This document shows positions 15,875 through 63,161 of a stretch of DNA of 64,000 nucleotides, in pieces. A program made the translations under genes and the position numbers. The number at the start of each line of letters is the position of its first letter. The first letter of the stretch is position 1. The stretch lies in the NCBI GenBank assembly GCA_012033015.1, contig JAAUPS010000002.1, positions 1 to 64,000 on the forward strand, written 5' to 3'. The stretch comes from Phormidesmis sp. RL_2_1. Its GTDB lineage: Bacteria; Cyanobacteriota; Cyanobacteriia; Phormidesmidales; Phormidesmidaceae. The notes beneath the pieces were generated by a model, which ran no database searches, was not told the DNA's origin, and worked only from the letters and a program-made list of their open reading frames with translations.

Positions 15875-16833
15875 ATGCCTTATACTATCGATTCCGCCCG
15901 CAGCATCTTTCCCAGCACGCTATCTGCTGATACCGTTCCAGCAACCATCGCTCGATTTGTTCAACTCAGCGCTGAAGACCAACTTGCCCTTATCTGGTTT
16001 GCCTACCTCGAAATGGGCCAAGCTATTACGATTGCAGCCCCCGGTGCGGCCAACATGCAGTTTGCCGAAATTACCCTCAACAAAATCAAAGGAATGTCTC
16101 CTTTAGAGCAATCACAAACCATGTGCGACTTGGCCAACCGGGCCAGCACCGAAATTTCTCGCACCTATGCAACTTGGACACCCAACATTAAATTAGGCTT
16201 TTGGTACAGATTGGGTGAATGGATGGAAGAAGGCTATGTTGCGCCAATTCCCGAGGGTTACAAACTCTCAGCTAACGCTGCTGCCGTTTTGCAAGCCATC
16301 AGAGGACTAGAGTCAGGTCAGCAAATTACCGTACTGCGCAGCGCCGTTGTCGATATGGGCTACGACACAGGCAAACTCGGCAGTTTTACCCGAGTTGCAG
16401 AACCTGTTGCTCCCCCCAAATCCATCGGTCAGCGCACTCAAGTTTCCATCGAAGGCACTAATAATGCCACCATATTGAGCTACATGAACAATCTCAATGC
16501 CAATGACTTCGATGCCCTCATCGAGCTGTTTGCAGCCATGGTGCCCTGCAGCCACCTTTCCGTAAGCCCATTGTCGGCAAAGACGCCATTCTCCGATTCT
16601 TTCAAGAAGAGTGTCAAAACCTCAAACTGATGCCTGAGCGCGGGGTCGAAGAAGCTGCAGAAGATGGCTACAATCAAATTAAAGTCACCGGCAAATGCCA
16701 AACACCTTGGTTTGGCGCTGCCGTTGGCATGAATATTGCTTGGCGCTTTTTGCTCAACCCCGATGGTAAAATCTTTTTTGTAGCCATTGATCTGCTAGCT
16801 TCCCCCAAAGAGCTTCTCAATCTCATGCGTTAG
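15875..16833 (+). pseudogene. ocp: Orange carotenoid protein, split by a 1-nt deletion near 16537
   Basis: MPYTIDSARSIFPSTLSADTVPATIARFVQLSAEDQLALIWFAYLEMG; restoring G in GCC(G)ATGGT gives LFAADGALQPPFRKPIVGKDAILRFFQEECQNLKLMPERGV...TPWFGAAVGMNIAWRFLLNPDGKIFFVAIDLLASPKELLNLMR. Confidence 0.95.
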
Positions 16834-17881: not shown

Positions 17882-18115
17882 CTATTTGTTGGGCAAAAGT
17901 CCACTGGTGTAAGCGTCGCCGCTGTAGGCAGGGACACGCTCCGAAAAATCAGTTTCTTTGCCAGTGATTGTTTTTGCCAGCTTCTCAAAAGAATCAGAGC
18001 GCCAGTTACGCTCATGAATCGGCTTGGTTTGCTCGCCTCTAAAGTAAGCTTGGGTGCCAATAATAGCAGCGCCCATCCAGCCAACCAAGATAACTAAACC
18101 TAAGACAGTAAACAT
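17882..18115 (-). CDS. Small membrane protein, possible Psb35-like (Ssl2148-type) PSII assembly factor
   Basis: 77 aa: one TM helix then GTQAYFRGEQTKPIHERNWRSDSFEKLAKTITGKETDFSERVPAY; name assigned from memory of the family. Confidence 0.6.
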   Translation of the reverse strand: MFTVLGLVILVGWMGAAIIGTQAYFRGEQTKPIHERNWRSDSFEKLAKTITGKETDFSERVPAYSGDAYTSGLLPNK

Positions 18116-18189: not shown

Positions 18190-18360
18190 TTAGCTGACGT
18201 ACAAAGCCACTAACAACACTGAGCAAACGAGGAGCATGGCCAGACCGCCCTGAATAACATAGCGACGCTGTTGCTCAGGCGAAGGAAAAGTAGAAAAGTA
18301 TACCGGAGGCTCAGTAGCATAGTTATTGAGGCGACCGGTTTCGTCTGTAGTTGTGTACAT
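18190..18360 (-). CDS. psb34: Psb34 (Ssl1498 family) light-harvesting-like small membrane protein
   Basis: 56-aa ORF absent from the supplied track: MYTTTDETGRLNNYATEPPVYFSTFPSPEQQRRYVIQGGLAMLLVCSVLLVALYVS. Confidence 0.85.
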   Translation of the reverse strand: MYTTTDETGRLNNYATEPPVYFSTFPSPEQQRRYVIQGGLAMLLVCSVLLVALYVS

Positions 18361-18391: not shown

Positions 18392-18445
18392 TTATGTCAA
18401 CTAATGTAACATATACATTCCTTTTTGTTACATTAGTTGACATAA
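18392..18445. promoter_or_regulatory. Perfect 20-bp inverted repeat carrying two HLR1-like boxes upstream of psb34
   Basis: TTATGTCAACTAATGTAACA (18392-18411), 14-nt spacer, TGTTACATTAGTTGACATAA (18426-18445); each arm contains GTTACATT-AG-TTGACATA. Confidence 0.75.
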
Positions 18446-18458
18446 AATATTTTATGTC
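18439..18458. promoter_or_regulatory. 20-bp perfect palindrome overlapping the distal HLR1-like arm
   Basis: GACATAAAATATTTTATGTC is self-reverse-complementary. Confidence 0.6.
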
Positions 18459-62433: not shown

Positions 62434-63161
62434 CTATTCTTCACCTGGCTCCACAATTCGCTGAAAAAGGTAACCGGTACCTCGCGCGGTCAAAATCAAC
62501 TCGGGGTTGCTTGGATCATCTTCTAGCTTGGCACGCAGACGAGAAATATGAACATCTAGACACGCGTATCTACATGGCGTTCAGGGGTGTAGCCCCACAC
62601 CTCTTGTAAAATTTCAGAGCGAGAAAACGGCTCACCAGAACGGCTCACCAACAGCTCTAGCAAGCTAAATTCCATGCCGGTGAGGCGAATGCGCTCGTCA
62701 CCTTTGTACACTTGCCGTTTGTTGGTATCGATGCGGATATTGTTAATTGTGATCACGCCCGAGCTGGGAATTCCCGAAGCGCCTGTTTTTTCTACCCGGC
62801 GCAGTACGGAGCGAATTCGCGCCTCTAGTTCCTTGGGAGAAAATGGCTTGACTACATAGTCATCGGCACCTAGCTCCAAGCCGGTGATGCGATCGGCGAC
62901 ATCGCCAAGGGCCGTCAGCATGATGATGGGAATGTCGGATTCTTTGCGTAGCTCTTGGCACACGCCATAACCGTCGAGCTTAGGCATCATCACATCTAGC
63001 ACAACTAAGTCAGGAACGGTATTGCGGAAGGTATCTAAAGCTTCTTCTCCATCGGCAGCCGTCACGACATCGTAGCCAATCATAGAAAGGCGAGTTTCGA
63101 GAATACGACGAATGCTGGCTTCGTCGTCAACCACTAGGATTTTTTCTTTAACATTTTCCAA
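62434..63161 (-). pseudogene. rpaB: RpaB OmpR-type response regulator, split by a 1-nt deletion near 62558
   Basis: MENVKEKILVVDDEASIRRILETRLSMIGYDVVTAADGEEALDTF...[12 protein letters not shown] then, in the next frame, [40 protein letters not shown]. Confidence 0.93.

Follow-up and report, generated by a model that had tools for sequence, protein, structure and literature searches.

In the window, i.e. the whole stretch of 64,000 nucleotides analysed here, the minus strand carries psb34, which encodes a photosystem II assembly protein, and downstream of it a Psb35-related gene (Table 1). The identity of Psb34 was established with the NF033486 equivalog model, which scored 85.3 bits (cut-off 45). 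There are two copies of psb34 in this genome and the one described here is the divergent one; the second copy (L031, G000:C421:6318-6476) is 43% identical and has a site, GTTATATTACTTAACATA, resembling HLR1 (the motif of the regulator RpaB; consensus KTTACAWW-N2-KTTACAWW, 18 bp), at -40. In Adonisia, Leptolyngbya, Symploca and other genomes, psb34 is likewise followed by psb35r on the same strand within a few hundred base pairs, and the two genes of the window are likely co-transcribed. FRP and the N-terminal domain of the orange carotenoid protein are also encoded near psb34. In the orange carotenoid protein gene (15875-16833, plus strand) the N-terminal domain is in frame, and the C-terminal part lies in another frame from about 16540-16630.

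Table 1. Features of the psb34 locus and the rpaB gene in the window.
Feature	Positions	Strand	Remarks
psb35r, Psb35-related gene	17882..18115	-	NF047380, E 4.5e-39; downstream of psb34
psb34, photosystem II assembly protein, 56 aa	18190..18360	-	NF033486, E 1.9e-24
Proximal arm of perfect inverted repeat	18392..18411	.
Proximal sense HLR1, GTTACATT-AG-TTGACATA	18393..18410	-	1 mismatch; first half overlaps predicted -10 box
Predicted -10 hexamer TACATT, extended form TGTTACATT	18403..18408	-	Predicted from psb34 promoter alignment
Distal arm of perfect inverted repeat	18426..18445	.
Predicted weak -35 GTAACA, inside distal arm	18426..18431	-	17 bp from TACATT; predicted from position of TTGACA/TTGCAA in relatives
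Distal inverted HLR1, GTTACATT-AG-TTGACATA	18427..18444	+	Unique to this genome
TGTCAA element	18437..18442	-	32 bp upstream of HLR1 in the window
Perfect 20-bp palindrome, GACATAAAATATTTTATGTC	18439..18458	.	Outer GACATAAA also present in L004
Terminator-like stem, perfect 20-bp inverted repeat, 5-nt loop	18622..18666	.	Between psb34 and upstream same-strand ORF
rpaB, reading frame split in assembly	62458..63137	-	NF045944, 333.9 bits

Upstream of psb34 lies an inverted repeat with arms of 20 nt that are 100% complementary and separated by a spacer of 14 nt; its proximal arm begins 32 nt upstream of the psb34 ATG (at 18360, minus strand). Each arm contains a copy of HLR1 with one mismatch to the consensus, and a palindrome of 20 bp overlaps the distal arm, with the heptamer TTATGTC occurring three times in alternating orientation (18392-18398, plus; 18439-18445, minus; 18452-18458, plus). 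A preliminary description had proposed all of these elements, and its positions, the complementarity of the arms, the single mismatch in each and the palindrome with its three heptamers agreed with our own analysis. When the region was shuffled 300 times with dinucleotides preserved, perfect arms reached 10 bp at most, compared to the 20 bp observed, and a chance origin of the repeat is therefore excluded. We also considered a repeated element present elsewhere in the genome and ruled it out, because in a whole-genome pattern search the paired-site patterns matched the psb34 locus only.

The psb34 loci used for comparison came from whole genomes and from named genomes (Adonisia, Leptolyngbya, Nostoc, Calothrix, Symploca and others). 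A sense HLR1 was found in 96 of 131 distinct psb34 upstream regions, with a median start at -44 from the start codon, in a set biased by the recruitment of relatives through similarity to the window protein. Another set, of 85 anchored promoters, was made with slightly different anchoring rules, and both give the same picture; the consensus of the 85 is ttttttgtcaA....t.tTgaca.Tttgtaacaat..tGTTAcATT.atTtACATAag. In many relatives the proximal HLR1 has zero mismatches to the consensus, and the copy in the window is among the weaker ones. Its second half, TTGACATA, is found in no other promoter of the set, most of which have TTTACATA. Two psb34 loci of the same genus (L006 and L007) were left out of the counts against conservation; they had been candidates for orthologs without HLR1 and were dropped, as they have no adjacent psb35r and may be paralogs. 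Some other loci (L011, L019, L023, L026, L041 and L044) encode longer psb34-like proteins, in which an N-terminal extension includes an SDGSELIPAE-like stretch, and no HLR1 was seen close to the matched start in these loci. Judged from the aligned upstream regions, the proximal arm is an ordinary and deeply conserved HLR1.

In most relatives, a TTGACA/TTGCAA-type box (offset -21) stands 17 bp upstream of TACATT/TAAATT; therefore the first HLR1 half-site would be the -10 box and the second would cover the predicted start. Relative to the start predicted from the -10 and -35 boxes, the proximal HLR1 extends from about -14 to +4. We took positions between -38 and +23 relative to the start as indicating repression and those between -66 and -45 as indicating activation, the former being the published repression window of RpaB (PMC13421787); in scp genes, 3-13 bp separate HLR1 from the start (PMC6331805). 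With reference to the predicted start, the proximal HLR1 would stand at the published repression position. It is possible that the start in the window differs from that of the relatives, because the -35 box of the window is weak. Other regulators were also considered, and NtcA (GTAN8TAC), SufR, CRP-type, PHO-like and LexA-like regulators were ruled out because none of their patterns was present in the psb34 upstream region.

In comparison, the distal arm is not conserved as an HLR1. Among the 85 anchored psb34 promoters, the one in the window was the only one with an upstream antisense HLR1 of two or fewer mismatches, and in no other did perfect inverted-repeat arms exceed 9 bp. A search pattern for a divergent HLR1 pair matched in one of 391 cyanobacterial genomes, at the psb34 locus of the window, and was missing from the other 390. 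With the perfect consensus in both sites, the divergent pair was found in 0 of the 391 genomes, and mirrored perfect-consensus pairs were thus ruled out as a general arrangement. Of the two HLR1-like boxes in the preliminary description, the proximal one is therefore borne out by the relatives but the distal one is not, and the idea of a mirror-image pair with both arms kept in relatives found no support: relatives have one sense HLR1 in their psb34 upstream regions, and the inverted arm is confined to the window. Across the promoters compared, the change to perfect mirror symmetry is specific to this lineage; as far as the searched genomes go, the site is ordinary and its mirror copy is rare.

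The mirror might still be functional, if two RpaB dimers bound in opposite orientation at the -35 and -10 regions and produced a tighter or cooperative light-dependent repression for which the symmetry was selected. Both arms are equally good HLR1 sites, one mismatch each, and in many relatives an additional HLR1-like site (three mismatches or fewer) covers the -35 box, so that double occupancy may be normal. However, this additional site is in the same orientation as the first and lies at -21/-22, and none of the other genomes searched has the inverted arm. The site centres are 34 bp apart in the window (about 3.2 turns) versus 21-22 bp (2 turns) in the relatives, and therefore the helix face differs from that in the relatives. 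Moreover, a template switch during replication, for which the evidence is given below, would explain the symmetry without selection. We consider a selected pair of this kind unlikely. About equally unlikely is the idea that opposed RpaB dimers on -35 and -10 clamp the promoter, which would make the pair a new geometry of RpaB operator created by a single template-switch mutation.

Another role was proposed for the repeat in the preliminary description, that of a DNA cruciform or an RNA hairpin that would add a second switch to psb34 expression. The predicted folds are strong, with -17.7 kcal/mol (z = -9.0) computed for the single-strand DNA hairpin of the repeat and -27.9 kcal/mol (z -6.5) for the RNA fold of the whole upstream stretch. 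However, the predicted -10 box and start lie within the proximal arm; accordingly, the distal arm would be missing from the transcript, and an RNA hairpin is unlikely; the terminator-like stem further upstream argues against read-through. The other psb34 promoters do not have arms of such length, and the spacer of 14 nt makes extrusion uncertain. We regard a structural switch as very improbable.

A part of the distal arm is conserved, namely the TGTCAA element, which was seen in psb34 loci from L002 to L163. In 60 of the 96 anchored psb34 promoters it precedes HLR1 by exactly 33 bp (at about -47 relative to the predicted start), and it was so spaced from an HLR1-like site in 17 of 66 family genomes, with 0 in the reversed control. 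The psb34 promoters therefore share a fixed layout, HLR1 plus a TGTCAA element 33 bp upstream, and this element is apparently without a name. TTGACAAA is the reverse complement of the usual TTTGTCAA and itself an HLR1-like half-site; therefore, the upstream inverted half-site would be old and the full inverted HLR1 new.

The closest promoter that we found belongs to a same-genus genome, G005 (L198, G005:C59:1-3000; protein 79% identical), where it is the promoter of psb35r and psb34 is missing between the two; no closer relative in which psb34 is retained after this promoter turned up. The distance from TATGTCAA to HLR1 is 34 nt in both promoters. Eight of the 20 arm pairs are mismatched in G005, compared to none in the window, and all nine base differences within the arms raise complementarity, a polarity that is read from one close sister promoter standing before a different gene. 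Seven of the nine are distal, including a run of five (ATATG to TGTAA), and two are proximal. The window and G005 differ in both arms at the outermost pair, and here G005 may be the derived one, because comparison with other relatives points in this direction. When random divergence at the observed rate was simulated, at most 17 of 20 pairs were reached and 18 in 0 of 2,000,000 simulations; this null is one of random divergence, and complementary changes could also result if a second site were selected for.

Template switching is documented to homogenise the arms of inverted repeats (PMC8604942, PMC8794818), and the comparison with G005 gave the corresponding pattern: a related imperfect repeat, equal spacing, and clustered changes that are all towards complementarity. 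We suggest that the mirror probably arose by a replication template switch, as a copying accident in one genome. The ancestral promoter would have been a quasi-palindrome, in which the conserved upstream TGTCAA element was half-complementary to HLR1. During replication, TATGTCAA might have paired with TTTACATA, and the neighbouring tract CTAATGTAACA would then have been copied from the HLR1 arm, while the single mismatch in the primed stretch would have been resolved to G in the proximal arm. The outcome would be an additional HLR1, inverted and overlying the -35 region. The window may thus illustrate, in a natural case, how a single template-switch mutation could yield a second, inverted site for a regulator.

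The symmetry could also have been produced by library preparation or assembly and be absent in the living genome. The assembly has 436 contigs and a contamination estimate of 6.98, and there are frame breaks in rpaB and in the orange carotenoid protein gene on the same contig. However, the spacing from TATGTCAA to HLR1 is identical to that in the sister, homologous sequence runs on at both sides, unlike at a chimeric joint, and the proximal half-site shows a specific change as well. Such an artefact is quite improbable in our opinion. The frame of rpaB is broken near 62560, and because RpaB is considered indispensable, the split is probably a sequencing or assembly indel. This rpaB was the only NF045944 match above the cut-off of 330, and the cognate regulator is thus encoded in the window.

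Repression of high-light genes by RpaB is reported for HLR1 sites in the -10 region, and the listed targets of RpaB include petB, cpcB and ftsH2/3 (PMC13421787). In this genome, HLR1-like sites were also found near petB, cpcB, psbV and an ftsH. In many family genomes, the regions upstream of psb35r (L170-L196) have about four HLR1 half-sites in a row, all in the same orientation, for example TTTGACATTTTGTTACATTTAATTTACATTGGTTTACATAAG in L170.

Taken together, we think it likely that the region is an HLR1/RpaB high-light promoter of psb34, and with it psb35r, in which the arms were homogenised by a template switch during replication. Under low light, RpaB bound at the proximal HLR1 over the -10 box and start would block RNA polymerase, and under high light its release from this site would switch psb34 on. 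The inverted HLR1 would bind RpaB weakly or redundantly and at most strengthen the existing repression. We favour the prediction that the mirror copy has little or redundant effect, perhaps a slightly stronger block at -35. On the evidence of its conservation, the proximal site would place psb34, and probably also psb35r, in the predicted high-light regulon of RpaB across many cyanobacteria.

Compared with the known HLR1/RpaB sites of core-promoter repression (hliA/scp, nblA and psbA2/3), the site in the window is alike in its one-mismatch consensus, its sense orientation and its position over the predicted -10 box and start, before a gene of photosystem II stress. It differs from them in the second half-site, which is TTGACATA instead of TTTACATA, and in the exact inverted copy of HLR1 that lies 34 bp upstream, centre to centre. 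More than one HLR1 per promoter is not peculiar to the window, since psaAB of Synechocystis has three (Takahashi 2010, as cited in PMC6331805); by comparison, the window has two, each the exact mirror of the other, and their arms match over 20 bp. The change from G005 resembles documented cases of quasi-palindrome correction (PMC8794818, PMC8604942, PMC7202029), in which clustered changes also make an imperfect inverted repeat perfect while a primer-like stretch stays unchanged and the spacing stays equal. In contrast to these documented events, that of the window is deduced from one sister sequence, and, unlike them, it would have taken place in a promoter and made a second site for a transcription factor.
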